Assembly (NCBI GenBank): GCA_019459525.1
Contig: JAIBEY010000042.1
Location: 62,001 to 126,000, forward strand
DNA from: Prolixibacteraceae bacterium
GTDB lineage: Bacteria > Bacteroidota > Bacteroidia > Bacteroidales > Prolixibacteraceae
Direction: 5' to 3'
DNA: 64,000 bases
Of the stretch, positions 3,984-60,459 are shown in pieces. The notes under the pieces are model-generated. The model searched no databases and was not told the DNA's origin. It worked only from the letters and a program-made list of their open reading frames with translations. Position 1 is the first letter of the stretch. Every line of letters starts with the position of its first letter. Position numbers and translations under genes: made by a program.

Positions 3984-5465
3984 GTGTATCAAATCCGGAA
4001 AAAAGTTGTTCTCTTTTACCTGATTTCGGCATTGTTTATTTTGCTGAATGCATTTTTTATGGTGCATAAGCATTCTATGATTATCAATGCTTTACCTTTT
4101 GTTTTTGGAATTATCCTGCTTGCGATATTTGCTTTCGACAAGCTTCTTTATCTGGTTGTTTTCTTTACCCCGCTTTCACTTCCGCTTAAAGAAATAATGC
4201 CAGGCTTATCGTTCGACATGTTTTTGCCTACCGAACCCCTCCTGGTAGGAATACTACTCATCTTCATCCTGAAATGCTTTACTAACGGACGGTTCGATCG
4301 TGATATTCTGACTCATCCCGTATCTCTGGCCATCTATTTCAGTTTATTTTGGATACTGGCCACCAGCTTTACAAGCACCATGCCTCTTGTTTCGTTTAAA
4401 TTCCTCTTGTCGCGAATCTGGTTTATTGTTAGCTTTTACCTGTTAACAGCCAAACTTTTCGAATCGGGCAAAAACATAGAGAAGTTTATCTGGCTATACA
4501 CTTTGCCCTTGTTAATTGTCATTTCGTATGCCACCACCCGCCATTTGAGTTACGGTTTGTGGGATAAACAAGCAGCGAACTTCGTGGTTAATCCGCTGTA
4601 TAACGACCACACGGCCTACGGAGCAGCTTTGGCCATGTACCTGCCTTTTTTATTTGGTTTTTCGTTTACAAAAATATACACCCCAAAAGTAAAGTTGTTT
4701 GTATATGCTGTATTGGGCATATTGCTTGCAGGACTTATTCTTTCGTATGCCAGGGCCGCATGGCTAAGTATGATTGTAGCATTTGGCGTGTGGGGAATTA
4801 TGCGCCTGAAAATTCGGTTTAAGCCGCTATTTATTACCTTTCTGGCCACAGTTTCCATCATCCTTGTTTTTCAGAATCAAATACTGATGTACCTGGAACG
4901 AAATGATACCGAGTCATCGGCCAACCTCACCGAACACATTTCGTCCATTTCAAATATTTCGTCTGACGCCTCCAACCTGGAACGTATTAACCGGTGGAGC
5001 TGTGCAATCAGGATGTTTGAAGATAAACCCTTTTGGGGCTGGGGCCCGGGAACCTACATGTTTAAATATGCTCCCTACCAGCTAACCGCCGACCGGACTA
5101 TCATCAGCACCAATTCGGCTGACGGAGGAAATGCGCACAGCGAATACCTTGGACCAATGGCCGAATCAGGACTTTTAGGAGTTATAACTTTCCTGATTTT
5201 GATTTCAGTAGTTGTTTATACTGCCATTCATGCCTATACCCGCGCAAAAGACAAACGTTTAAAAACCCTTGTTATGAGCGCTTTGCTCGGATTAATCACC
5301 TATTACATACACGGAATCCTGAATAATTTTCTGGATACCGATAAACTTTCCGTTCCTTTTTGGGGGTTTACAGCTATTATTGTGGCCATTGATATTCATA
5401 CCAGGAAAATAGTCAAAGCCGAAGGATTACCCGAACCGGATGCTACCGTTACCAACAGGATTTAA
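3984..5465 (+). CDS. O-antigen ligase/polymerase (Wzy/WaaL) family membrane protein
   Basis: About 10-12 TM helices; GWGPGTYMFKYAPYQ...NAHSEYLGPMAESGLLG motif typical of the Wzy_C/O-antigen ligase domain; GTG start. Confidence 0.8.
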   Translation: MYQIRKKVVLFYLISALFILLNAFFMVHKHSMIINALPFVFGIILLAIFAFDKLLYLVVFFTPLSLPLKEIMPGLSFDMFLPTEPLLVGILLIFILKCFTNGRFDRDILTHPVSLAIYFSLFWILATSFTSTMPLVSFKFLLSRIWFIVSFYLLTAKLFESGKNIEKFIWLYTLPLLIVISYATTRHLSYGLWDKQAANFVVNPLYNDHTAYGAALAMYLPFLFGFSFTKIYTPKVKLFVYAVLGILLAGLILSYARAAWLSMIVAFGVWGIMRLKIRFKPLFITFLATVSIILVFQNQILMYLERNDTESSANLTEHISSISNISSDASNLERINRWSCAIRMFEDKPFWGWGPGTYMFKYAPYQLTADRTIISTNSADGGNAHSEYLGPMAESGLLGVITFLILISVVVYTAIHAYTRAKDKRLKTLVMSALLGLITYYIHGILNNFLDTDKLSVPFWGFTAIIVAIDIHTRKIVKAEGLPEPDATVTNRI

Positions 5466-5468
5466 GGC

Positions 5469-5505
5469 AAAAAAAAAAAGCTGAGGCCCCTGACCATCAG
5501 CTTTT
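5469..5505 (-). terminator. Intrinsic terminator downstream of the orphan cobalamin riboswitch (minus-strand sense)
   Basis: On the minus strand AAAAGCTGA-tggtcaggggcc-TCAGCTTTTTTTTTTT: 9-bp stem followed by a long U-tract; the plus-strand orientation has only a short CTTTTAG tail. Confidence 0.75.
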
Positions 5506-5566
5506 AGAACAGTTACACGGTTTCAAACTTGGCAGAAGTGAAACCTGTGAAGCCAGGGATTTTGGC

Positions 5567-5770
5567 TCTTACCCCGAAAGCTTCTCGTTGCCGGCAGGTC
5601 TTCTGGCTCTCCTGATTTTTGCCAACCTTCCCATCTTGCCTTAGGCAATACAGTGGTTATTTTCGGCAAAACCTCCTTGCGGATAAAGGATTACAGCTGC
5701 GGGGACAGCTCCTGTTTTGAACAGGATTCCCTTTTCATTCCGGGTAAACGGAAACCAACAACACGTCTGC
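5567..5770 (-). ncRNA. Cobalamin riboswitch (orphan: no sense CDS downstream)
   Basis: Reverse complement contains GGGAATCC-tgttcaaaaca-GGAGCTGTCCCCGCAGCTGTAATCC...GCCTAAGGCAAGATGGGAAGG...GGAGAGCCAGAAGACCTGCCGGC, the conserved B12-box/aptamer core, same as the two riboswitches at 48.8 and 53.4 kb. Confidence 0.93.
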
Positions 5771-5916
5771 AATAATACAGAGAAAATTCAGATTGGATCA
5801 TTAGTTAAAAGTTAATAAATTCGGAAGTTTTGGCCGCACCCGCCCATTACAAATTATACACCCACCCGGTAGATTTGTAATTTTTTCGAATTACCTTTGA
5901 ACCCGAAATTAATGAT

Positions 5917-6303
5917 GTGAAAATGAAACAATTCATTGGAATCCTGCTTTTTGCAGCCATACTTTCAGGACTTTCATCCTGCTATTCAACCTCGATTGAA
6001 AAACCAGACCAGCTCATTAAAAAGGAAAAGTTTGTGAAAATGATGGTTGACATGTACCTTGTTCAAGGAAAAGACATGAACTTTAACGAGGCCGATAGCC
6101 TGAAAAAAATCACTCAAACCGATCTTTATTTCTCGGTCCTGAAAAAATATGATGTTCCGGATACTGTTTTTGTCCGCTCCTTGCTATACTATTCCAGTTC
6201 TCCGAAAGAATATGAAAAATTACATGTTCAAATCGTGAATATTCTGAACGAATCGGAACAGCAATTTAAGCCCAAGGAGAAATTGAATACCGATACGAAA
6301 TGA
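5917..6303 (+). CDS. DUF4296 domain lipoprotein
   Basis: Lipobox LSSCYST; short Bacteroidota protein with KFVKMMVDMYLVQGKD...YYSSSPKEYEKLHVQIVNIL pattern. Confidence 0.75.
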   Translation: MKMKQFIGILLFAAILSGLSSCYSTSIEKPDQLIKKEKFVKMMVDMYLVQGKDMNFNEADSLKKITQTDLYFSVLKKYDVPDTVFVRSLLYYSSSPKEYEKLHVQIVNILNESEQQFKPKEKLNTDTK

Positions 6304-6776
6304 AAAAACTGGCAGCCAACTACCTGATTGCTGAAGATGGAAAATTTCTGAAAAACGGGATTGTAGTTGCTGAAGATGATGGAACTGCGACCGCATTTAT
6401 TGATACCACCAATGACCTGAAGGAAATTGCCCGGCTAACGTTTCATAACGGCATATTACTCGCCAACTTTATTTTCCGAAAAGGAACCAATATCGTTTCG
6501 TCTTCCGAATCAGAACCACGGCTAAAGCAGTTTATTTTCGAAACGGTCCTCCCATTGGAGGCGTTTTCAATTCAGGAACTGATTGATCTGGGAAAACAAG
6601 TTCAGGAACAATTTCCGGAAATGAAAATTCCCGAAATTTTAAAACACATATCTGAAGTTTTAGTAGCGAATAACAACTTTGTAAAAGAGAATCTCCCCGG
6701 CATTTTTCTCATCATTGGTGTCGATCTTTCCGGATTACATTTTACCCCCAAAAGTTGCCTGAAAAAAATCCTTTAA
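6300..6776 (+). CDS. Uncharacterised 158-aa protein; N- and C-terminal segments resemble the beta-sandwich ends of an amidohydrolase lacking the TIM barrel
   Basis: N-term ANYLIAEDGKFLKNGIVVAEDDG...LTFHNGILLANFI and C-term NLPGIFLIIGVDLSGLHFTPKSCLKKIL resemble amidohydrolase termini; no HxH or catalytic barrel. Confidence 0.6.
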   Translation: MKKLAANYLIAEDGKFLKNGIVVAEDDGTATAFIDTTNDLKEIARLTFHNGILLANFIFRKGTNIVSSSESEPRLKQFIFETVLPLEAFSIQELIDLGKQVQEQFPEMKIPEILKHISEVLVANNNFVKENLPGIFLIIGVDLSGLHFTPKSCLKKIL

Positions 6777-48653: not shown

Positions 48654-48741
48654 TTGTGTTTAAACAATTAATTCTTCCGAATGAATCTGATTCTGACAAA
48701 AATAGTTTTTCTCCGAAACAGAATTAATCAAGGCTATTTTC

Positions 48742-48749
48742 TACTTTTG
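48742..48749 (+). promoter_or_regulatory. Candidate -7 element for riboswitch-1 transcript
   Basis: TACTTTTG just upstream of cobalamin aptamer. Confidence 0.55.
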
Positions 48750-48759
48750 TGGCGTATTG

Positions 48760-48965
48760 GTTGACGAGCTTCCGGAGTTTTGGAAGCAAGTCTGAAAAGG
48801 GAATCCGGTGCAATACCGGAGCTGTACCCGCAGCTGTAAACCTCTGAATAACTTTTTGCAACCTCTGCCACTGTCAAGCCTAAAGCGAGACGGGAAGGCC
48901 GCAAAAAGTGAGGTGAGCCAGAAGACCTGCCAGTTCAAAATCAATGTAAGTCGAATCTTCGGGAA
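48760..48965 (+). ncRNA. Cobalamin riboswitch 1
   Basis: GGGAATCCGGTGCAATACCGGAGCTGTACCCGCAGCTGTAAACCTC...GCCACTGTCAAGCCTAAAGCGAGACGGGAAGGCCGCAAAAAGTGAGGTGAGCCAGAAGACCTGCC. Confidence 0.97.
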
Positions 48966-49028
48966 AAAAGATCGGTGAAGGGCAACTGCTGTTTCCATTT
49001 CATTTCTTCCGGAATAACATTTTGTATT

Positions 49029-49676
49029 ATGCTATTATTTTCGTCGTGGAGTGGCGGTAAAGACTGCATGTTGGCACTTTACCGTATCCAAAAATCAGGT
49101 ACTCACCAGGTAAAAGTTCTCCTGAACATGTGCGATGCCGGATCGGATGTTTCGCGTTCGCACGGAATCAGGCAAGAGTTGGTAGCCCGACAAGCCGAAG
49201 CGCTGGGTATTGAATTGCTTCAACCTAAAACCGACCGCGCTGGTTACGAACAGAATTTTAAAGCAGCCATCCTGAAACTGAAAGAGCAAGGAATTGCCGG
49301 CGGGGTTTTTGGCGACATTTACCTTTGGGAACATCGCCATTGGATAGAGCACGTATGCAGCGATTGCGGCGTTGAAGCCATCTTTCCGCTGTGGGACAAT
49401 CCGGTAAACGAACTGGCTGCCGAAATTATTGGTGAAGGCTTTAAAACACTGACCGTTTCGGTAAATGCCAAACAACTGACCGAAAATTTCATCGGTCGTA
49501 TTTACGATCAGGAATTTGTTGCCGAGCTTTCTGAATTCGAGGGTATCGACGTTTGCGCCGAGCTGGGTGAGTTTCACACCTTCGTGTACGATGGCCCCAA
49601 TTTTAAGCATGCGGTTTCGTTTCAGAAAGGAGCCGTTCATTTTCGGGATAATCATTGGTTTCTGGAGATAATATAG
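49029..49676 (+). CDS. Dph6/COG2102-like ATP pyrophosphatase (annotated generically as diphthine--ammonia ligase), B12-riboswitch controlled
   Basis: LFSSWSGGKDCMLALYRIQKSG PP-loop; GGVFGDIYLWEHRHWIEHVCSDCGVEAIFPLW. Confidence 0.88.
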   Translation: MLLFSSWSGGKDCMLALYRIQKSGTHQVKVLLNMCDAGSDVSRSHGIRQELVARQAEALGIELLQPKTDRAGYEQNFKAAILKLKEQGIAGGVFGDIYLWEHRHWIEHVCSDCGVEAIFPLWDNPVNELAAEIIGEGFKTLTVSVNAKQLTENFIGRIYDQEFVAELSEFEGIDVCAELGEFHTFVYDGPNFKHAVSFQKGAVHFRDNHWFLEII

Positions 49677-49682
49677 AAATAG

Positions 49683-49790
49683 CCTCATCCCCAACCCTTC
49701 TCCGGGGGAGAAGGGAGTTTTGAGAGCACATTAATGTGAATTTATACTTCCTAAAGTCCCCCGTTTGGGGGATTAGGGGGGCAAAAAAGT
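49683..49790. repeat. Intergenic repeat-like element with two hairpins
   Basis: CCTCATCCCCAACCCTTCTCCGGGGGAGAAGGG (9-bp perfect stem 49695-49715) and TCCCCC-gttt-GGGGGA (49757-49772). Confidence 0.6.
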
Positions 49791-49794
49791 AGAT

Positions 49795-50604
49795 ATGAAA
49801 AAAATAGTTTTCCTCAGTATTTTATTGATTCTTTGTTTGTTTGGTCAGGCACAGGAAGCCAAGCGCATTGTGTCGCTGGTTCCGTGGATGACCAAAAGCC
49901 TTTACCTGATGGGCGAACAGGGCCGGTTGGTTGGCTGCACCAGTTATTGTCCGGTGGTAGCTACCGATAAAATCCCTGTAGTGGCTACTGCCGTAAATGT
50001 CAGTCTCGAAAAAACGCTGACGCTTAAACCCGACCTGGTTTTTGCGTCGTCGCTCATCAAGCCCGAAACCATCGAAAACATGAAGAAGCTAGGCATTAAG
50101 GTCGAATACATGCCCTATCCGAAATCGTTCGAGGAGATTTGTATCAACTTTATCCGAGTGGGCGAATTGGTTGGCCAGGGTGCCAAAGCCAAAAACATAG
50201 TTTCGCAGCAAAAAGCGCGTTTAGCACAATTAAAAACTGGTATTCCCGCCGGAAAGAATCCGAAAATGTTCATCCAAATCGGAGCCAAACCGCTGTTTTG
50301 TGCCGTGCCAGATACGTTCATGGAAGATTTTATTCAGTTTGCCGGAGGTAAAAATATTGCAGGCGAACTGAAAAACGGTAGCATCACCCGCGAATACGTG
50401 CTGAAGCAAGACCCGGATATTGTTTTTATCGTAACCATGGGAATTGTAGCCGAAGAAGAACGCGACACCTGGCTGAACTATCCGTCGCTTTCGGCCAGCA
50501 AAAGTAAACGGGTTTTTATTCTTGATGCAGATAAAACCTGTAGCCCCACTCCTGTTTTATTTGTCGATGCGTTGGAAGAAATGATCAAATTGTCGTACAA
50601 ATAG
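49795..50604 (+). CDS. btuF: BtuF-like periplasmic substrate-binding protein
   Basis: Signal peptide; AKRIVSLVPWMTKSLYLMGEQGRLVGCTSYCPVV...LKPDLVFASSLIKPETIENMKKLGIKV. Confidence 0.87.
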   Translation: MKKIVFLSILLILCLFGQAQEAKRIVSLVPWMTKSLYLMGEQGRLVGCTSYCPVVATDKIPVVATAVNVSLEKTLTLKPDLVFASSLIKPETIENMKKLGIKVEYMPYPKSFEEICINFIRVGELVGQGAKAKNIVSQQKARLAQLKTGIPAGKNPKMFIQIGAKPLFCAVPDTFMEDFIQFAGGKNIAGELKNGSITREYVLKQDPDIVFIVTMGIVAEEERDTWLNYPSLSASKSKRVFILDADKTCSPTPVLFVDALEEMIKLSYK

Positions 50605-50617
50605 ATAGGTTGCGAGT

Positions 50618-51643
50618 ATGATTTCAGGACATGGCGATGACAGTTTTCGCTTGAAGATACCCATCCTGGCCGATTTTAGTTCGAATGTATGGTTTGGCGG
50701 AACACCGCCGGAATTGATCAGCCATTTGCAGCAAAACCTGCATCTTATCGGGAATTATCCCGAACCCGATGCGGTTGAATTGTGTTGTAAAATGGCTGTT
50801 TTACACGATGTAACTCCGGAACAGGTATTGGCTTTTAACGGCTCAGTCGAGGCTTTTTATACCATCGCCCTGGCTTTTCGCGAAAAGCATTCGGCTATTT
50901 TTTCGCCAGCGTTTGCCGAATACGAAGATGCCTGCCGGATGCACAACCATCAAATCAGTTTTTTTACTTCTGCCGAAAGCCTGAATGATTCGGTGAAAGA
51001 AGCAGATCTTTGCTGGTTGGGCAACCCGAATAATCCCGATGGGCATATTTTTCAGTTTGCTGAAATCGAAGAATTCCTGAAAAAAAATCCGAAAACAATT
51101 TTGGTTATCGACGAAGCTTATGCCGGTTTTATTCCGGGCTTTCAATCGGTAATTGAGCTGACTACGAAGTTCGAAAACCTGGTTGTGGTGCGTTCGGTGA
51201 CTAAATGTTGCGCCATTCCGGGTTTGCGGTTGGGCTATGTGGTCGCTTCCGCCAAACTGGCCAAACGGCTCCGGAAATTTCAGCAGCCCTGGTCGGTCAA
51301 TGCGTTGGCACAGGAAGCCGGGAAGTTTCTGATTGAAGATTTGAAAGCGCACATGCCCGATGCCGTTGTCGTCCAACAGCTCTCGAAGAAACTGCAGCAA
51401 TCGGTTGGCCAGCTCAAAGGTTTTCGGGTAATCAATTCAGAAGCACCCTATTTTCTGGTTGAAATGCAATCGGGAACGGCTACCGAACTGAAAGAATTCC
51501 TGATCCAGAAACACGGCATTTTAATCCGTGACGCTTCGAATTTCAGAGGATTGAACGAACGGCATTTCAGGGTTTGTACGCGGAATGAAAACGACAACCA
51601 ATTACTGATTGATGGTTTGAAAAGCTATATGCAATTGAAATGA
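50618..51643 (+). CDS. PLP-dependent aminotransferase, CobD-like (threonine-phosphate decarboxylase / HisC-like)
   Basis: WLGNPNNPDG, LVIDEAYAGF, VVVRSVTKCCAIPGLRLGYVVAS; adjacent to cbiB. Confidence 0.83.
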   Translation: MISGHGDDSFRLKIPILADFSSNVWFGGTPPELISHLQQNLHLIGNYPEPDAVELCCKMAVLHDVTPEQVLAFNGSVEAFYTIALAFREKHSAIFSPAFAEYEDACRMHNHQISFFTSAESLNDSVKEADLCWLGNPNNPDGHIFQFAEIEEFLKKNPKTILVIDEAYAGFIPGFQSVIELTTKFENLVVVRSVTKCCAIPGLRLGYVVASAKLAKRLRKFQQPWSVNALAQEAGKFLIEDLKAHMPDAVVVQQLSKKLQQSVGQLKGFRVINSEAPYFLVEMQSGTATELKEFLIQKHGILIRDASNFRGLNERHFRVCTRNENDNQLLIDGLKSYMQLK

Positions 51644-52569
51644 CACCCGAACAATTGATTATTATCCCACTTCTCATTGGCTTTTTGCTCGATTGTTTGT
51701 TGGGCGATCCGCTTGGATTGCCACATCCCATCAGGCTTTTCGGCAACTCCATCTACTTTTTTACAGAAAAACTAAATTCAGGAAGCTACCGGAAAGCGAA
51801 AGGCGCTGCAATGGCAGTTGGATTAATTGCCGTTACTTTTGGCACGGTTTGGCTGATACTCCATCTGGCTAAATCTATTGAACTATTATACGTTGGATTA
51901 GCTAGTCTGGGTGTTTTTTATGGTTTGGCCAACCGAAGCCTGATTCAGGAATCATACAAGGTAATGAAAGCTTTGCAATGGGAAGGACTGGGGGCAGGAC
52001 GAAAACAACTAAGTTACATTGTTGGCCGCGAAACCAGTAACCTGAACGAGCAGCAGATACGGATTGCGGTACTCGAAACGCTGGCCGAAAACCTGAGCGA
52101 CGGGGTAATTGCACCGCTGTTTTTTTATGCCCTTGGCGGCGTTCCGGCCATGATGGCCTACAAAATGGCGAACACGCTCGATTCGATGATTGGCTACAAA
52201 AGCGAAAGGTTCAGGCAGTTTGGTTGGTTCGCAGCCCGGTTCGACGATGTCATCAATTTTATTCCGGCACGAATTACAGCGTTGCTTATGGTTGTACTCA
52301 GTTTTAGCTGGCGCGGGTTGGTATCTGTTTTCCGCTACGGGCACCAACACAGCAGCCCCAACGCCGGTTATCCCGAGGCCGCATTGGCCGGAATCCTGAA
52401 TTGTAGGTTTGGAGGCCCGAATGTGTATCACGGCACATTGGTCGAAAAACCGTACATTGGAAATAATGACAGGAAAATCACCAACCGCGACTTTTACAAA
52501 ACCTGCGTTCTGAATTTCTTTACTTGCCTGGCGATGATTGGGTTAATTTGCATAATCAGAATGATTTAG
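51640..52569 (+). CDS. cbiB: Adenosylcobinamide-phosphate synthase
   Basis: GFLLDCLLGDPLGLPHPIRLFG; LSYIVGRETSNLNEQQIRIAVLETLAENLSDGVIAPLFFYALGGVPAMMAYKMANTLDSMIGYKSERF. Confidence 0.96.
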   Translation: MTPEQLIIIPLLIGFLLDCLLGDPLGLPHPIRLFGNSIYFFTEKLNSGSYRKAKGAAMAVGLIAVTFGTVWLILHLAKSIELLYVGLASLGVFYGLANRSLIQESYKVMKALQWEGLGAGRKQLSYIVGRETSNLNEQQIRIAVLETLAENLSDGVIAPLFFYALGGVPAMMAYKMANTLDSMIGYKSERFRQFGWFAARFDDVINFIPARITALLMVVLSFSWRGLVSVFRYGHQHSSPNAGYPEAALAGILNCRFGGPNVYHGTLVEKPYIGNNDRKITNRDFYKTCVLNFFTCLAMIGLICIIRMI

Positions 52570-52581
52570 CAAGAATTTGGC

Positions 52582-52607
52582 ACCACAGATAACACCAATT
52601 TTCACAG
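52582..52607. repeat. Left arm of ACCACAGAT palindromic repeat flanking TA module
   Basis: ACCACAGATAACACCAATTTTCACAG, about 20/26 identical to reverse complement of 53301-53326. Confidence 0.65.
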
Positions 52608-52620
52608 TAAACATCGCGTG

Positions 52621-52929
52621 TCAATAACCGTAGTTTGTATTTTCAGTATTTTTGTCTTGCCTGTTATCCCAGAAAGAAACTATTTCAATATTGCCTAGAT
52701 TTATTTCGTAGAAAATCAAGTATATTTTCATTGGGATCACACGAGTGAATTTGTTTGAGGTTAATCTTCCAATCGATTCATTTTTCGAAAGACTTCTGGT
52801 TAAATTCTCAATGTCATTTAAAAGTTTGAGACTATATCGCGTACTTTCGTTACGTTGGTTGAAATATTCAAGAATATGTCTTAATTCTTTACTTGCACGA
52901 GTTGACCAGATTATTTTTTTGTCAGCCAT
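52621..52929 (-). CDS. Type II toxin, RelE/ParE family
   Basis: IIWSTRASKELRHILEYFNQRNESTRYSLKLLNDIENLTRSLSKNESIGRLTSNKFTRVIPMKIYLIFYEI...IEIVSFWDNRQD. Confidence 0.88.
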   Translation of the reverse strand: MADKKIIWSTRASKELRHILEYFNQRNESTRYSLKLLNDIENLTRSLSKNESIGRLTSNKFTRVIPMKIYLIFYEINLGNIEIVSFWDNRQDKNTENTNYGY

Positions 52930-53153
52930 TCTTTCATCTCAGAGATTAATTGGTCATTCTCAATATAATCGCCACTTTTAATTTCCTCCCTGCCTTTTAT
53001 AATAGAATCATTTTGCTCTGGGGACAATTGATACAGAGATTGTTCCGATGAATCGAATATTGTTTGAAGTGCTTTTAAAAAATTCATGTCATTCGAGTCT
53101 TTAATTCTCGAAATCAAACTATTTTTCAGTTGAGTTGTCATGTCCATAACCAT
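52911..53153 (-). CDS. Cognate antitoxin-like protein
   Basis: 80 aa, overlaps toxin start by 19 nt, GREEIKSGDYIENDQLISEMKEWLTKK typical antitoxin C-terminus. Confidence 0.78.
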   Translation of the reverse strand: MVMDMTTQLKNSLISRIKDSNDMNFLKALQTIFDSSEQSLYQLSPEQNDSIIKGREEIKSGDYIENDQLISEMKEWLTKK

Positions 53154-53300
53154 CAGTTTTCAATCATATTCAAAAATAAACAATTTTTCCGAATCAGGTG
53201 GTTTGTCAGATTTATTTACGTCAGTTTGATTTCTATCTTCTTGATCTATATTAACTTAACTTGAAACTGCATTTGGCATCTTTCAAAATTTCATTTTTAT

Positions 53301-53326
53301 CTGTGTTTATCTGTGTAATCTGTGGT
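53301..53326. repeat. Right arm of ACCACAGAT palindromic repeat flanking TA module
   Basis: CTGTGTTTATCTGTGTAATCTGTGGT. Confidence 0.65.
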
Positions 53327-53336
53327 AAATAATCCA

Positions 53337-53344
53337 TAGTTTTG
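53337..53344 (+). promoter_or_regulatory. Candidate -7 element for riboswitch-2/btuB transcript
   Basis: TAGTTTTG matches TANNTTTG immediately upstream of the aptamer. Confidence 0.5.
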
Positions 53345-53346
53345 CC

Positions 53347-53560
53347 TTCGGAAATGGTTCCGATGTTGGTTTGCGCCAACAAGGACTAATAGGGAATCCG
53401 GTGAAAAACCGGAGCTGTACCCGCAGCTGTAAGCCTTAATACAAACTTTTTGAAACTCCTGCCACTGTTCCGGTTTACCGGAATGGGAAGGCCTCAAAAA
53501 GAAGGCGAGCCAGAAGACCTGCCAATTCCACGCACGTTAATCATAGCTTTCGGGATAAAA
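53347..53560 (+). ncRNA. Cobalamin riboswitch 2
   Basis: GGGAATCCGGTGAAAAACCGGAGCTGTACCCGCAGCTGTAAGCC...GCCACTGTTCCGGTTTACCGGAATGGGAAGGCCTCAAAAAGAAGGCGAGCCAGAAGACCTGCC. Confidence 0.97.
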
Positions 53561-53689
53561 GCAATGGGGTGATCGTTTTCATCTAGTTTATCCATTTGTT
53601 CCTTTTTTGTCAGCCCGGGATGTTTATCGGGGAACATGTTGAAAGTTTATGGTCGACATTTTTTAATGTTTAACCATAAAAGAAGTGTT

Positions 53690-55795
53690 ATGAATTTTAA
53701 ACAAATGACCTTTGTTTGCATGGGATTGCTCTGCTCTTTAGGCGCCACAGCCGACCTGCTCGACTCGACCAAAGTGTACCCAATCCAGGAAGTTACCGTT
53801 CATGCGTCGCGGATGGAACAAAAACTGAAAAACCTTCCGCAGAAAGTCGAAATTATTTCCTCAAGCCTGATCCAGTCGTTGCCGGCCGAAAACCTGGCAG
53901 AAGTGCTTAAACGCACTACCAACCTCGATATTATTCAATATCCGGGATTGTCGGCTACTATTGGGATGCGTGGTTTTTCGCCAAGTGCACATGCCCGCAG
54001 TTATACTTTGCTCCTGATCAACGGGAAACCTGCCGGAACAACTAACCTCGCAACCATAAACCTCGACAATGTAGAGCAGATCGAAATCGTAAAAGGTTCG
54101 TATTCGGTGCTCTACGGATCGGATGCGATGGGCGGTGTGGTCAACATCATCACCAAACGCGGCAGTGCTGTTCCTGAAGGCCATGTTTCGGTTGAATCCG
54201 GAAGTTTTGGTTACCGCAAATTTTCAGGAAATTTCACCGGGAATTCGGGGACGAAACTTACTTATGGCTTGGGTTACAGTCGTCAGGAGCAAACCAAAGA
54301 TTACCGCATCGGACAGAAAAACCAGCTAAAAATTTCGGATGTTGATAAGCTGATTCTCGATAAAGCTTCGTATGGCGATGCGATGGACAACTCGCAGTAC
54401 GAGCTGAATGCAGCCAATGCGTTCGTGAATTACGACATCAGCAAGCAATGGAAAATTAGTGCTGAAGGCGCCTACACTTTTGCTTACGATGTGGAAACTG
54501 CCGGAAATTACTGGGGAACCTACGGGCAAAGCAAAAAAGATGTGAACCGCCTCAACCTGTATGTGACGGCGGAACAAAATAGCGAGAAGAATCACTTCCG
54601 GTTCAGCCCATATTACACCAACGACCAAAACCCCAATTATTCCGACAACACCGACAAGGGCTTTATCAGCTTTAAAAGTACAGTAAAAGAATTGGGTTAT
54701 CAGCTTCAGGATAACTATAAACTGGGCAATTTTGATGTGCTTTTGGGAACCGACCTGAAAATTTACGACTACCAGTCGGATCGTTTTTCGGCCATCGGAA
54801 CACCAGCCGATCCGTATAAACCCAACAACAAATTCACCAATGTGGATGCTTTTACGCAACTCGCTTATTCGGTTAAAAACCTGGATTTGAATGCCGGTGT
54901 GCGCTTCGATCGTTTTACTTATCACATTGATGCGAACGACGGGCTAAAAGCTCCGGAAGCCGACGCCCATTACAACACGCTGAATCCTTCGGTAGGCGCG
55001 CAATACCAATTTCTGAAAAACTTCAAGGCCCATGCTTCGTTCGGAACGGCTTTTTCGGTTCCCGATGCGTTTAAAGTCGCCGGGAAATATACCGTTTCAG
55101 GAAAAGCGTATGTGGGAAACCCTGATCTTGATCCAGAGAAATCGCGCACAACCGATTTCGGTGTCGGCTATTTATCACCAAAAAGCAGCCTGAGATTAGA
55201 TGTGTCGTATTTCCAGACTTTGCACGACCGTAAGATTGTGGAAGAAAAAATGGCTTCGGGCGAATACACTTACGTGAATGCCAACGATTCGAAGATGGAA
55301 GGTATCGAACTGATGTCGTCGTTCAATCTGGGGCAATTTCTGCCTGAAAAGCCGGAACTGGAAGCTTACGCCAATTTTACCTGGATTCTGAAAAACGATT
55401 TTACGCAGTTGGTGGGCACCGAAATGCTGACCCGTGACATGCAATATGTGCGCAATGCCAACGGAAACTTTGGACTGAACTACCGGCACGACCGCATCAG
55501 TATGCGCCTGAACAGCCGTTTCATTGGTTCGCGTCTCGAAAAAGATTCGTTTAGCAGCCTGCGTACCGGAATTGTGGCGGCCAATTATTATGCCGAAGGT
55601 GGCTATAAAGCGACCGACAAAATCCTGCAACATCCAGAATATTTGCTGTTCGACTATTCGATTGGCTACGCGTTCACCGAAAAGGTAAATTTTGGAGTTA
55701 CTGTATCGAATCTGCTCGACGAAAACTATTCAGAAAAAGACGGGTACAACATGCCCGGACGAAGCATTGTTGCCAAACTGGCTTATAAATTTTGA
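53690..55795 (+). CDS. btuB: TonB-dependent receptor, BtuB-type (cobalamin/corrinoid)
   Basis: QEVTVHASRMEQKLKNLPQKVEIISSSLI plug; VLYGSDAMGGVVNIITKRG; C-terminal NLLDENYSEKDGYNMPGRSIVAKLAYKF; directly under a cobalamin riboswitch. Confidence 0.93.
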   Translation: MNFKQMTFVCMGLLCSLGATADLLDSTKVYPIQEVTVHASRMEQKLKNLPQKVEIISSSLIQSLPAENLAEVLKRTTNLDIIQYPGLSATIGMRGFSPSAHARSYTLLLINGKPAGTTNLATINLDNVEQIEIVKGSYSVLYGSDAMGGVVNIITKRGSAVPEGHVSVESGSFGYRKFSGNFTGNSGTKLTYGLGYSRQEQTKDYRIGQKNQLKISDVDKLILDKASYGDAMDNSQYELNAANAFVNYDISKQWKISAEGAYTFAYDVETAGNYWGTYGQSKKDVNRLNLYVTAEQNSEKNHFRFSPYYTNDQNPNYSDNTDKGFISFKSTVKELGYQLQDNYKLGNFDVLLGTDLKIYDYQSDRFSAIGTPADPYKPNNKFTNVDAFTQLAYSVKNLDLNAGVRFDRFTYHIDANDGLKAPEADAHYNTLNPSVGAQYQFLKNFKAHASFGTAFSVPDAFKVAGKYTVSGKAYVGNPDLDPEKSRTTDFGVGYLSPKSSLRLDVSYFQTLHDRKIVEEKMASGEYTYVNANDSKMEGIELMSSFNLGQFLPEKPELEAYANFTWILKNDFTQLVGTEMLTRDMQYVRNANGNFGLNYRHDRISMRLNSRFIGSRLEKDSFSSLRTGIVAANYYAEGGYKATDKILQHPEYLLFDYSIGYAFTEKVNFGVTVSNLLDENYSEKDGYNMPGRSIVAKLAYKF

Positions 55796-55856
55796 TAATG
55801 AAAAACTAGTGAGCGGGCGACATCGAGTCACCCGCTCACTTAATAAACAACAAAAT

Positions 55857-56366
55857 ATGGCTCAAATTACATTCATCACCGGAGGCGCCCGTTCAGGAAA
55901 AAGCAGTTTTGCCCAGCAAATGGCCGAATCTGCCAGCCCAAACCCGGTTTACCTGGCCACTGCCCGAGTGTGGGACGACGATTTCCGCCGCCGCATCGAA
56001 CGGCACCAGAACGATCGCGGACCGCACTGGATCAACATCGAAGAAGAAAAGCAACTTTCGGCTTGCAAGGTTGAAGGCCAAACCGTTTTGCTCGACTGCA
56101 TTACCTTGTGGCTAACCAATATCTTTTTTGACAATCAGTTCGATGCTGATCGTTCGCTCGAAGAAGCCAAATCCGAATGGAACCGATTTGTTCAGAAAGA
56201 AATGAACCTGATTGTGGTAAGCAATGAGCTGGGCATGGGCGTTCATCCGGTAGAAGAATCAGCCCGCCAGTTTGCTGATTTGCAAGGCTGGATGAACCAA
56301 CACATCGCCCGGCAAGCCAGCGAAGTTTTCCTGATGATCTCGGGAATTCCTGTGAAAATAAAGTGA
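55857..56366 (+). CDS. cobU: Bifunctional adenosylcobinamide kinase / adenosylcobinamide-phosphate guanylyltransferase
   Basis: ITFITGGARSGKSSFAQQMAE; VLLDCITLWLTNI; VVSNELGMGVHP; start at 55857. Confidence 0.96.
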   Translation: MAQITFITGGARSGKSSFAQQMAESASPNPVYLATARVWDDDFRRRIERHQNDRGPHWINIEEEKQLSACKVEGQTVLLDCITLWLTNIFFDNQFDADRSLEEAKSEWNRFVQKEMNLIVVSNELGMGVHPVEESARQFADLQGWMNQHIARQASEVFLMISGIPVKIK

Positions 56367-56395
56367 TCAGTCGCAGTGGTCAGTTTACTGATTGG

Positions 56396-56423
56396 AACCA
56401 CAGTAGGCACATAGGTCACATAG
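56396..56423. repeat. Interspersed repeat copy A (AACCACA..AGGCACATAGGTCACATAG)
   Basis: Reverse complement CTATGTGACCTATGTGCCTACTGTGGTT matches copies at 60556 and 62132. Confidence 0.7.
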
Positions 56424-56449
56424 AAAAAACCGCGGATAATGGTTTTAAT

Positions 56450-56484
56450 TAGTCAGGGCTTCACTTTGAGTGAAACCCTGACTA
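56450..56484. repeat. Strong stem-loop between cobU and cobT1
   Basis: TAGTCAGGGCTTCACT-ttg-AGTGAAACCCTGACTA, 15/16 complementary. Confidence 0.8.
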
Positions 56485-56529
56485 TAATCGACAACAATTT
56501 CAACAACGACAACATTTAAAACACAACCC

Positions 56530-57534
56530 ATGAACCTCAACGAACAACTCAAACACAAAATTGATTTTAAGACCAAACCACTTGGTGCGCTTGGTCTTCT
56601 CGAAGATCTGGCCCTCCAAATCGGGTTAATCCAAAACACGCTGACTCCCGAGCTTAAAAATCCGGCATTGCTGGTTTTTGCTGCCGATCACGGACTAACC
56701 GACGAAGGTGTCAGCCCTTACCCAAAAGAAGTAACCTGGCAAATGGTCATGAATTTTGTGGCCGGAGGCGCTGCCATCAACGTGTTTTGCCGCCAAAACG
56801 GTATCAATCTGAAAGTCGTCGATGCCGGTGTCGATTTCGATTTTCCGGCCGATGCACCAATTATCAATGCGAAAGTGGCCCGTGGATCGCGAAACATGCG
56901 CCGCGAACCCGCGATGACCGAAGATGAATGTGCTGTAGCCATTCAAAAAGGCCGCGAACTGGTTCAGGCTGAAGTAGCGAACGGTTGCAACATCATTGGT
57001 TTTGGCGAGATGGGCATTGGCAACACTTCGGCTTCGTCGCTGTTGATGCACCGTTTCCTGAATATCCCGATTGAAGAGTGTACCGGCGCCGGAACGGGTT
57101 CGCACGGCGAACAACTGACACGCAAAATGCAGATACTGAAAGAAGTTTCGGAGAAATACGATCCGAAAACCCCGGAGGAAACGCTGGCTACCTTTGGCGG
57201 ATTGGAAATTGCGATGATGGTAGGCGCCATGCTCGAAGCCCGCGATCGGAATATGATTTTGCTGATTGATGGTTTTATTGCCACTGCCGCTGCTTTAACC
57301 GCCGTCAGGTTCAATCCTGAAGTCCGGGGCAATTGTGTATTTTGCCATTCGTCAGACGAGCGCGGCCACAAGCTGATGCTCGAAAAGCTGAATGCGCGGC
57401 CCATGCTTCAGCTCGATTTACGGCTTGGCGAAGGAACCGGAGCCGCTTTAGCATTACCTTTGGTACAGGCTGCCGTTAATTTCCTGAACGAAATGGCCAG
57501 TTTCGAAGCGGCCGGAGTGGCAAATAAAGAATAG
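56530..57534 (+). CDS. cobT: Nicotinate-nucleotide--dimethylbenzimidazole phosphoribosyltransferase, paralog 1
   Basis: KTKPLGALGLLEDLALQIGLIQ; AADHGLTDEGVSPYPKEVTWQMVMNFVAGGAAI; GFGEMGIGNTS; LGEGTGAALALPL. Confidence 0.96.
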   Translation: MNLNEQLKHKIDFKTKPLGALGLLEDLALQIGLIQNTLTPELKNPALLVFAADHGLTDEGVSPYPKEVTWQMVMNFVAGGAAINVFCRQNGINLKVVDAGVDFDFPADAPIINAKVARGSRNMRREPAMTEDECAVAIQKGRELVQAEVANGCNIIGFGEMGIGNTSASSLLMHRFLNIPIEECTGAGTGSHGEQLTRKMQILKEVSEKYDPKTPEETLATFGGLEIAMMVGAMLEARDRNMILLIDGFIATAAALTAVRFNPEVRGNCVFCHSSDERGHKLMLEKLNARPMLQLDLRLGEGTGAALALPLVQAAVNFLNEMASFEAAGVANKE

Positions 57535-57625
57535 TTCCAGGTTTCAAGTTCCAGGTTCGCTGCGAACAATATCTCCTGAACTTGATATTTTTGTTCAATA
57601 TTCGATATTGGAAATTGGGTATTAT
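57535..57625. repeat. Intergenic repeat-like sequence
   Basis: GTTCCAGGTTTCAAGTTCCAGGTT direct repeat followed by ATATTCGATATTGGAAATTGG; non-coding gap between cobT1 and cobS. Confidence 0.45.
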
Positions 57626-57670
57626 TTTCTTTAATACTTGATGCCTTTGTGGCAATTTTAAAACAACATC

Positions 57671-58435
57671 ATGCAAAACCAACTACACATATTCCTGAAC
57701 GCTATCATGTTTTACACGCGCATCCCGGTGCCGAAAAACCTGCCGTATTCCGACCAGATGCTGAACCAGGCTACCCGCTGGTTTCCTTTTATTGGCTGGA
57801 TTGGTGGCGGCATTGGGGCGGGAGTTTTCTATGGATTGCAGTTTATTTTTCCGCCTGAACTAGCCATTTTGCTAAGTATGCTGGTTACGATTTTTATCAC
57901 CGGCGCTTTTCACGAGGACGGCTTTGCCGATTTCTGCGACGGTTTTGGGGGTGGATACACGAAGGAGAAAATCCTAACCATCATGAAAGACAGCCGTATC
58001 GGCACTTACGGAAGCATCGGCCTGATCGGAATGTTGGCAACCAAGTTTATGGGTTTGCATTCCATCGATTCGGCTACGATACCGTTGATTTTGGTTGCTG
58101 GCCATGCGTTGAGCCGGTTGATGCCGGTTGTGGTGATTTTTACTTCGGAATACGCCCGTGCCGACCTCGAAAGCAAAAGCAAACCCATTGGCCAGAAAGG
58201 AAAACCCATCGATTTGCTCGTGGCGGTTTTCTTTGGGTTGGCACTTCTGGCTTTCGTGCCGCTAACGTTTTCCGTGATAATTATTCCTGTTTTGCTGATA
58301 ACCGCCTTTGTTTTCAGGAATTACATTGTCGGGAAACTTGGAGGTTACACCGGCGATTGCCTGGGCGCTTTGCAGCAAATTTCGGAGGTTCTTTTTTATT
58401 TGGCCTGGGTGGCCTTTCAAAACCACGCGATATGA
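57671..58435 (+). CDS. cobS: Adenosylcobinamide-GDP ribazoletransferase (cobalamin synthase)
   Basis: AIMFYTRIPVPKNLPYS; TGAFHEDGFADFCDGFGGGYTKEKILTIMKDSRIGTYGSIGL. Confidence 0.97.
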   Translation: MQNQLHIFLNAIMFYTRIPVPKNLPYSDQMLNQATRWFPFIGWIGGGIGAGVFYGLQFIFPPELAILLSMLVTIFITGAFHEDGFADFCDGFGGGYTKEKILTIMKDSRIGTYGSIGLIGMLATKFMGLHSIDSATIPLILVAGHALSRLMPVVVIFTSEYARADLESKSKPIGQKGKPIDLLVAVFFGLALLAFVPLTFSVIIIPVLLITAFVFRNYIVGKLGGYTGDCLGALQQISEVLFYLAWVAFQNHAI

Positions 58436-58959
58436 TCATTACGGCAATCCGACATACTTCAGTCGATGTTCCTTCAGGAATTTGCTACGGAAAAACCGAG
58501 GTTCCGCTCGCCCTTACCTTCCGGAGTGAGCTGGATTCAATCAAGCAAAAGCTGGCCGACGAAACATTTGATGCTGTATTTTCGAGCCCGTTGAGTCGTT
58601 GTACAAAATTGGCAACCGAACTTTTTCTTGAAGAGCCGCTCCGAATTGATCACCGGCTGACTGAACTTGATTTTGGCGATTGGGAAATGATGCCTTGGGA
58701 TACCATTTTTGAATCGCCGGAAGGCAAAGTCTGGTTTGGAGATTATACCCGAGCCTGCTGCCCCAACGGAGAATCGTTAATTGATTTGATTTTCAGAACG
58801 AAAATATTTTTAGACGATTTATACAAGATGAAACATGAACGCATCGTTTTGGTTACCCACGCCGGAGTGATTCGCGCCCTGATGTGCCTGATTCAGAACA
58901 GAACTCCTGAAGAGGCTTTTCAAACACCGTTGGTGTACGGACAGATAGTGAATTTCTAA
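58432..58959 (+). CDS. cobC: Alpha-ribazole phosphatase, histidine phosphatase family
   Basis: ITAIRHTSVDVPSGICYGKTEVPLA (RHG variant RHT), FSSPLSRCTKLA, VTHAGVIRAL; start at 58432. Confidence 0.92.
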   Translation: MIITAIRHTSVDVPSGICYGKTEVPLALTFRSELDSIKQKLADETFDAVFSSPLSRCTKLATELFLEEPLRIDHRLTELDFGDWEMMPWDTIFESPEGKVWFGDYTRACCPNGESLIDLIFRTKIFLDDLYKMKHERIVLVTHAGVIRALMCLIQNRTPEEAFQTPLVYGQIVNF

Positions 58960-58960
58960 T

Positions 58961-59308
58961 CTACGCCTTTTTATAATAATTGAAAAACATTAACCCGGCT
59001 ATGAACAGATTTGTCAGAATGATAAGCGATCCAACAACCAGAAGCTTCGCTGCTGCCGAATTGAATGTAGGAAACTCACTGAGCTCCGAAAGCATAGCCA
59101 GAATCATGTAAAGGTTGATTAATATGAACGAATTGGCGAGCATGATACCGGTGATTGCATTTCTGAAAATAAGCTGCAATGCAACAATACCGGCTATGAT
59201 CAATACCAATGGGTGGACTGAAAATGGCGGATTAAAACCGGAAAGAAGAACTAGAACAATAAGGTAACTTTCGGGAAGAACTTCTAATAGTTTGGCTGGC
59301 ATTTTCAT
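58961..59308 (-). CDS. Small hypothetical membrane protein, counter-oriented within B12 cluster
   Basis: 115 aa, 3-4 hydrophobic segments; no family recognised. Confidence 0.55.
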   Translation of the reverse strand: MKMPAKLLEVLPESYLIVLVLLSGFNPPFSVHPLVLIIAGIVALQLIFRNAITGIMLANSFILINLYMILAMLSELSEFPTFNSAAAKLLVVGSLIILTNLFIAGLMFFNYYKKA

Positions 59309-59379
59309 AATCTGTTGGTTTTAAACGACTATTTAACGAGAAGTGATCAGTTTTAGTATGTTAGATAAAATTAAATAGC

Positions 59380-60459
59380 ATGAAAATGATGACGAATTTT
59401 AATATTCCAGAGCTAAATAACGATCTGGTTGCCCGGCTTCAGCATAAACTCGACAACAAAGCCAAGCCGGTTGGTTCGCTCGGGCAATTGGAATCGTTGG
59501 CTTTGCAACTTGGATTGATTCAAAATTCACTTTCTCCGGAATTGAGAAATCCGGTCATGCTTACTGTTGCTGCCGATCATGGAATTACAGCCGAAGGTGT
59601 GAGTGCCTGTCCGGTCGAAATTACCTGGCAACAGGTGCATAATTTTCTGGCGGGTGGTGGTGGAATTGGCTTGCTTTCGCGCGTTTACGAAATGGATTTG
59701 TGGGTGGTTGATGCCGGTGTTAATTACCAGTTTGAACCTCATCCGAAACTGATTGATGCAAAAGTGGCTTTTGGCTCCGAAAACTTTAGGTATCAGCCAG
59801 CCATGGGCATGGAAAACTGCACGAAAGCTTTTAACAATGGAAGAGAAATTGTCAGGAAGTTTGCCGGGCAAGGAACCAATGTGATTGGTTTTGGCGAAAT
59901 GGGCATAGGGAACACCACCCCCGCATCGGCACTGATGTCGATTATTTGCGGATTGCCGGTTGAAGAATGCGTTGGGCCGGGAGCCGGATTAAACAGCGAA
60001 GGCGTTCAGCATAAAGCAAAAGTTATTCAGGATGCTATCGATAAACTTGGCATTTCAGAATCGGCGTTCGAAAACCTGGCTAAGTTTGGCGGATACGAAA
60101 TAGCAACCATTGCCGGTGGGATGATTGAAGCCGCCTGTAATCGCATGGTGATTCTGGTTGATGGGTTCATCACGACTTCGGCTTTGCTGGTAGCCCAGGA
60201 AATGGATCGTCGGGTGCTGGATTATTGCATTTTCTCGCACGAATCTGACGAACAGGGACACCGGAAAATGCTTCGGCACATGAATGCTTCGGCTGTCCTG
60301 AAACTGGGCTTGCGACTCGGAGAAGGAACGGGAGCCGCTATTGCCTATTCGGTGCTGAAAGGCGCAGTGGCTGTGCTTTCGGAAATGACCTCGTTTGAAG
60401 AGGCCCAGGTGATCAACACCAGCCATATACGAATGGAAGAAGTGCCTAAAGTGAGCTAG
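59380..60459 (+). CDS. CobT-family phosphoribosyltransferase, paralog 2
   Basis: KAKPVGSLGQLESLALQLGLIQ; AADHGITAEGVSACPVEITWQQVHNFLAGGGGI; GFGEMGIGNTT; CVGPGAGLNSEGVQHK; LGEGTGAAIAYSV. Confidence 0.95.
   Translation: MKMMTNFNIPELNNDLVARLQHKLDNKAKPVGSLGQLESLALQLGLIQNSLSPELRNPVMLTVAADHGITAEGVSACPVEITWQQVHNFLAGGGGIGLLSRVYEMDLWVVDAGVNYQFEPHPKLIDAKVAFGSENFRYQPAMGMENCTKAFNNGREIVRKFAGQGTNVIGFGEMGIGNTTPASALMSIICGLPVEECVGPGAGLNSEGVQHKAKVIQDAIDKLGISESAFENLAKFGGYEIATIAGGMIEAACNRMVILVDGFITTSALLVAQEMDRRVLDYCIFSHESDEQGHRKMLRHMNASAVLKLGLRLGEGTGAAIAYSVLKGAVAVLSEMTSFEEAQVINTSHIRMEEVPKVS

Follow-up and report, generated by a model that had tools for sequence, protein, structure and literature searches.

What is the function of a complete cobalamin riboswitch that ends in its own terminator and is followed by no gene? 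Such an element lies on the minus strand of the 64,000-nucleotide stretch of Prolixibacteraceae DNA analyzed here (the window, to which all positions refer). The first-pass annotation, made from the letters of the window, had described an orphan riboswitch that would yield a B12-controlled small RNA, or an antisense transcript coupling O-antigen ligase and Wzz genes to corrinoid status, or that could be a relic of a lost btuB. In this report, we conclude from sequence comparisons that a terminator-type, gene-less B12 riboswitch is real and conserved at this locus. Its output is probably the RNA itself, a stand-alone B12-responsive noncoding RNA of about 295 nt with no downstream gene. The riboswitch-gated noncoding RNAs that we found described in the literature come from Firmicutes (Listeria, Enterococcus), and our literature search found no such RNA described for Prolixibacteraceae. 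If the proposed reading is true, a gene-less B12 riboswitch at one locus in six Bacteroidota genera would mean that such a mode of action had arisen outside the Firmicutes as well.

Architecture of the Element

The first-pass annotation had suggested that the Rfam Cobalamin model be run on this region. A search of the window with RF00174 returned three matches. The match on the minus strand at 5774-5576 scored 100.2 bits (gathering score 31.5, E 7e-24) and was full length (model positions 1-189 of 189); the other two, at 48741 and 53338, belong to ordinary gene leaders. The coordinates and anatomy first given for the aptamer, the stem-loops, and the terminator (5505-5469) were right. The features of the element and its two neighbors are as follows.

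5770-5777, minus strand: -7-like box TATTATTG of a predicted Bacteroidota-type promoter; octamer conserved among relatives
5576-5774, minus strand: AdoCbl riboswitch aptamer; RF00174 100.2 bits, scorable orthologues 95-120 bits
5701-5705, minus strand: aptamer L5, UCCCC, half of the L5-L13 kissing loop; 17 of 17 orthologues with the aptamer available
5569-5579, minus strand: L13 loop UUUCGGGGUAA, complementary to L5 (CGGGG with CCCCG); CGGGG in 18 of 18
5549-5584, minus strand: P13-like helix, GAAGC (5584-5580) with GCUUC (5553-5549), inner GGGG with UCCC; 98.8% and 98.4% of cells paired
5551-5558, minus strand: switch segment CCCUGGCU, 3' side of P13 and first strand of the antiterminator; pairs with 5495-5488
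5518-5547, minus strand: middle hairpin with invariant CUGCC loop (5535-5531); compensatory changes in 4 of 7 stem pairs, loop in 18 of 18
5509-5517, minus strand: unpaired spacer UGUAACUGU; GUAACUG invariant in 18 of 18, related UACUGUU in the g12 cousin described below
5488-5495, minus strand: GGUCAGGG, 5' part of the terminator and second strand of the antiterminator
5469-5505, minus strand: intrinsic terminator, AAAAGCUGA/UCAGCUUUU stem, inner 4 bp, 11-U tract; conserved in 18 of 18
3984-5465, plus strand: O-antigen ligase (PF04932), convergent neighbor outside the element; antisense to any read-through
5917-6303, plus strand: DUF4296 gene (PF14129), divergent; fixed neighbor in 18 of 18 genomes

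Of the 17 relatives for which the upstream part is available, 15 have an octamer resembling TAnn(A/T)TTG on the 5' side of the aptamer. A clear -33 element is absent beside the predicted -7-like box, and the RNA start is predicted at about 5760-5768. The terminator is composed of a 9-bp stem (AAAAGCTGA/TCAGCTTTT), a bulged base, 4 bp more, and 11 U, with a calculated energy of -15.0 kcal/mol; a simple terminator scanner misses it, and the bulge is probably why. The ACAGGTTTCA...TTGAAACCGTGT hairpin pointed out in the first-pass annotation is present at about 5547-5518. The convergent ligase gene (Wzy_C family) ends 3 nt short of the U-tract.

Downstream of the terminator, no sense minus-strand ORF of at least 90 amino acids is kept for 4.78 kb, as had been proposed; the first such ORF, named GH3 in the first-pass annotation, begins at that distance near the left end of the window. 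The minus-strand ORFs that overlap the element are at most 48 amino acids long and have no start or stop codon common to relatives. A relaxed-threshold Rfam search of the 3' module gave no second family.

Distribution and Genomic Context

A DNA search of 60 relatives demonstrated that the whole RNA is 77-92% identical in genomes of the same genus. Conservation across genomes begins at about 5788, just upstream of the -7-like box, and ends at about 5472 within the U-tract, past which the sequences are unrelated (background identity of 31-50%). A covariance model (R1) built on the 121 positions of the post-aptamer module matched 18 of 141 Prolixibacteraceae genomes, which represent six genera, with one copy in each. 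All 18 have the same parts, namely the aptamer, the L13 hairpin, the antiterminator/terminator, and the CUGCC-loop hairpin. The aptamer is full in every one and scores 95-120 bits where it can be scored; the element of G013 is divided between two contigs. When 85,488 prokaryote species were scanned with a pattern, 22 stretches were found, 15 of which were recognized by R1. By name or matching contig these 15 are all Prolixibacteraceae, including Mangrovibacterium, Sunxiuqinia, Gaoshiqia, and Puteibacter; neither R1 nor Rfam gives a score for the remaining 7. In an order-wide sample scored with R1, where few candidates were scored per genome, only the genome studied here matched. The module was absent from the other riboswitches of this genome at the loci examined, and a plasmid search gave a 50-base aptamer piece and nothing more. 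Cobalamin aptamers are found in 136 of the 141 family genomes, and thus the orphan is a special locus and not the sole riboswitch of the family. Four genomes, G033, G474, and G476 (g12) and G510 (g225), carry 10-13 cobalamin riboswitches each, versus about 2 in most family members.

All 18 elements are divergent from an operon that encodes DUF4296, an uncharacterized protein, and a radical-SAM protein. In the window, a 158-aa protein is encoded at 6300-6776, between DUF4296 and the radical-SAM gene; it has no Pfam match and is syntenic throughout the family loci examined.

The gene on the 3' side varies. Convergent radA, O-antigen ligase, HlyD-like, TolC/RND-like, glyoxalase-like, and ispG-like genes were found there, with the ligase checked by Pfam and the other names read from sequence. 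In 6 of the 18 genomes radA abuts or overlaps the terminator, and in several others it is the first convergent gene to follow. The neighbor is antisense wherever it can be assigned (14 of 18), none of these genes is a known B12 gene, and a sense gene is absent in 14-15 of 18; the contig of G502 ends 269 nt past the element. The specific coupling to O-antigen ligase and Wzz is not supported, since those genes adjoin the element in this genome alone and radA or other genes take their place elsewhere.

A DUF4468 gene (PF14730) lies in the sense direction 56-150 nt past the terminator in three genomes (G022, G013, and G016). The gene is still present in three genomes where the riboswitch has decayed (G009, G011, and G015) and is therefore not the general target of the element; it has promoter-like sequence of its own. 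No TonB or cobalamin gene stands behind the element in any of the 18 genomes, no sense gene is conserved there across them, and no broken receptor gene was apparent in G036 or G501, the two in which a long stretch past the element is empty. The expectation that riboswitch and terminator would be conserved in relatives without a coding sequence was borne out in these 18 genomes of six genera. Neither a conserved small ORF nor a close relative with a TonB receptor gene behind the riboswitch, either of which the first-pass annotation had held would speak against it, was found.

Structural Support and Proposed Switching

The predicted structure as a whole is paired in 94.8% of cells, versus 35-62% when it is slid along the alignment. 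Compensatory changes were found in 29 cells (11.2 in shuffles), and the covariation score was 0.188 (0.104 in shuffles). Covariation supports the P13-like helix, whose outer stem has compensatory C-G/U-G/U-A and G-C/A-U changes, and the middle hairpin. The antiterminator formed by CCCUGGCU and GGUCAGGG is paired in 97.7% of cells and is nearly invariant, and for that reason it has no covariation support. At about -15.9 kcal/mol it is nearly isoenergetic with the terminator. P13, the antiterminator, and the terminator are mutually exclusive, with their pairings possible in nearly all cells. The complementarity of L5 and L13 is complete, with UCCCC in 17 of 17 and CGGGG in 18 of 18. A similar (U)UUCGGG(A/G) P13/L13 hairpin, located outside the RF00174 model, follows other cobalamin aptamers that were examined in the family (L001, L002, L004, L018-L029, and L033), and the L13 block is thus ordinary riboswitch anatomy.

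L5-L13 is the kissing-loop pair of corrinoid riboswitches, and the layout of the orphan matches the rules for the repressing metE riboswitch of P. megaterium and the activating cobT riboswitch of A. halodurans (PMC10653944). The orphan differs from both in that no gene follows it and in the extra covarying CUGCC-loop hairpin between P13 and the terminator. With AdoCbl bound, L5 (UCCCC) would kiss L13 (CGGGG) and stabilize P13, which would leave the 5' strand of the terminator free, and the short RNA would be released. When AdoCbl is absent, the 3' side of P13 (CCCUGGCU) would pair with GGUCAGGG as an antiterminator and allow partial read-through into whichever convergent gene adjoins. The sign, with B12 giving P13 and the terminator and its absence giving the antiterminator, would be that of P. 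megaterium metE. The full-length minimum free energy structure was the terminated form in 18 of 18, and a crude folding test in which the L13 bases were blocked did not reproduce the expected regulatory sign.

Selection and Loss

Within the genus, the post-aptamer module is 90-98% identical to the copy in this genome, while identity at the 4-fold sites of the linked radical-SAM gene is 38-48%. This makes a dead relic very unlikely, and that part of the btuB-relic proposal is disfavored. As a control, the post-aptamer regions of orthologous gene-linked riboswitches from the same genus were found to be equally conserved (up to 96%). Conservation was therefore dropped as proof of action in trans; it shows an active switch. 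Among the gene-linked orthologues of the riboswitches at 48741 and 53338 (L150-L163), the post-aptamer regions were often more conserved than the aptamers (e.g., 0.95 vs 0.85), against the usual expectation.

Thirteen members of the genus lack the element. In 7 of them radA and DUF4296 are about 40 bp apart and in the same direction. In G009, G015, and G011 (L064, L057, and L058, respectively) a decayed copy of the 3' end of the module (AATGTAACTGGGATAAAAG...) is located upstream of DUF4296, beside DUF4468; by sequence these remnants are element loss caught in progress, and G007 probably has a worse-decayed remnant. An unrelated insert occupies the site in G006, and the contig of G002 starts within the gene. 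In a protein tree of the linked operon, the element is present from the base and was lost about five times within the genus; although some nodes are weak, the tree favors repeated loss. The element is, on this phylogenetic evidence, old, vertically inherited, and dispensable.

Origin

A cousin riboswitch in another genus, g12 (L125, L148, and L149) is divergent, lies 3' of a PBP1A-like gene, and has both a CUGCC-loop hairpin and a UACUGUU spacer. The cousin precedes DUF4249 and a TonB receptor in G475 and a broken DUF4249 with an inserted gene in G033; in G474 no comparable gene follows for 2 kb. The cousin in front of DUF4249 and a TonB receptor suggests a receptor-leader origin for the orphan, which probably descends from such a leader. 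The leader would have belonged to a B12-regulated outer-membrane receptor operon that was lost in the ancestor of these genera while the element was kept. As an account of origin, the btuB proposal is thus plausible. If this is true, the loci line up as a natural series, with the gene leader in G475, gene loss in G033 and G474, and then the stand-alone RNA and its decay, and they would put clearly to the test whether the RNA alone can be the reason that a riboswitch is kept.

Comparison with Known Riboswitch RNAs

The closest precedent by layout is AspocR of Listeria monocytogenes, which in the account given in PMC8079631 (citing Mellin 2013) is a short RNA with B12 and a 1.4-kb antisense RNA without it, directed against pocR, a regulator of B12 and propanediol genes. 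As AspocR is described there, both loci have a B12 riboswitch and terminator with no sense gene, tail-to-tail and antisense to the neighbor, and the orphan would likewise make a short terminated RNA with B12 and read through without it. Measured against the same account, the orphan differs in that its antisense gene varies, is never B12-related, and has no conserved long antisense product. No B12-related regulator gene was found in conserved antisense overlap with the orphan.

The first-pass annotation had cited EutX and Rli55, which are found in Enterococcus and Listeria, as precedents. The resemblance is sound insofar as each is an AdoCbl riboswitch RNA that stands alone, has a conserved 3' module, and leads into no gene; their defining early terminator and dual hairpin were not found in the orphan, and AspocR is closer by layout. 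In EutX and Rli55 an early terminator is followed by a dual hairpin that binds EutV (ANTAR) (PMC5821096, PMC8079631), whereas the orphan has no early terminator and its sole terminator is at the 3' end. No EutV/ANTAR dual hairpin past an early terminator was found, as judged from the position of the terminator and the conserved blocks (L13, the CUGCC loop, and UGUAACUGU) rather than from an ANTAR-site motif. The ANTAR domain (PF03861) has no match in this genome and none in the control genomes either. The SAM riboswitches SreA and SreB of Listeria are terminated riboswitch RNAs that act in trans on an mRNA (PMC8079631); SreA in addition leads into an operon in cis, which the orphan lacks. Control of a sense downstream gene, as in terminator-type riboswitches, has no counterpart here, since no such gene is conserved in the 18 genomes.

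Possible Functions

We infer that the RNA is expressed, responds to its ligand with the sign given above, arose from a leader, and works by means of its switched 3' module, either in trans or as a decoy. One tentative form of this reading is a B12-switched trans-acting sRNA of Bacteroidota, in which AdoCbl would alter the conformation or length of a conserved 3' module (the CUGCC loop and UGUAACUGU), which would base-pair with mRNAs or bind a protein, with neither an ANTAR partner nor a cis gene. No intramolecular partner was assigned to the CUGCC loop or to the UGUAACUGU spacer, and both are candidates for the contacts in trans. As a counterpoint, the CUGCC loop and an ACUGU spacer recur in the g12 cousin, apparently with a cis gene in one genome. 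Targets were sought within the window by duplex energy, and none was convincing. The strongest hit, a hairpin at 56452-56482 upstream of a cobT-like gene, pairs with the stem of the middle hairpin, which is not conserved, and was attributed to chance.

If the element worked in the manner of AspocR, low B12 would permit read-through, and the antisense RNA would lower the expression of the convergent gene, ancestrally radA and here O-antigen ligase/Wzz. The convergent neighbor in most genomes, with radA at or across the terminator in 6 of 18, is consistent with this, as is the intact antiterminator, which implies selection on read-through or switching; a B12 riboswitch that governs an antisense RNA is documented in Listeria in the account of PMC8079631. 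The antisense gene is not conserved, however, none is a known B12 gene, and the sequence beyond the U-tract is not conserved, and we consider such cis antisense control unlikely. It is improbable that transcription or termination of the element tunes the divergent DUF4296-radical-SAM operon or insulates it from radA. That operon is the only neighbor fixed in all 18 genomes, and without the element radA and DUF4296 lie so close together in one direction that they are likely cotranscribed. Yet the operon is kept in genomes that lost the element, plain vertical inheritance can explain the fixed synteny, and no linking device was found in the sequence beyond the divergent promoters.

Two further readings are very improbable. 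A functionless relic of a lost btuB-type operon would fit the use of the same type of platform for a receptor operon in another genus, the stages of gene loss in g12 (broken in G033, empty in G474), and the repeated loss of the element; strong purifying selection with compensatory changes in six genera argues against it, and the true relics in G009, G011, and G015 look decayed. The least probable reading is a cis riboswitch for an unrecognized downstream gene, such as the secreted DUF4468 protein of G022, G013, and G016, or for a short unannotated peptide. The sense orientation of DUF4468 shortly after the terminator in those three genomes is offset by its absence from the other 15, its persistence beside the decayed riboswitches, and its promoter-like sequence, and the ORFs in the element keep no start or stop across genomes. 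A stand-alone noncoding RNA remains the reading that we favor.

Gene-Linked Riboswitches in the Window

The two gene-linked cobalamin riboswitches of the window belong to a B12 gene cluster at 48741-60459, in which the gene names were read from sequence. The first precedes an ATPase-like gene, btuF, a cobD-like gene, and cbiB. The second is followed by a btuB-like TonB receptor, cobU, cobT, cobS, a cobC-like phosphatase, and a second cobT-like gene. A near-perfect inverted repeat with 14-bp arms lies at 56452-56482, upstream of the first cobT-like gene (56530); it is the single one of its kind in the window and may be a terminator or a processing hairpin.
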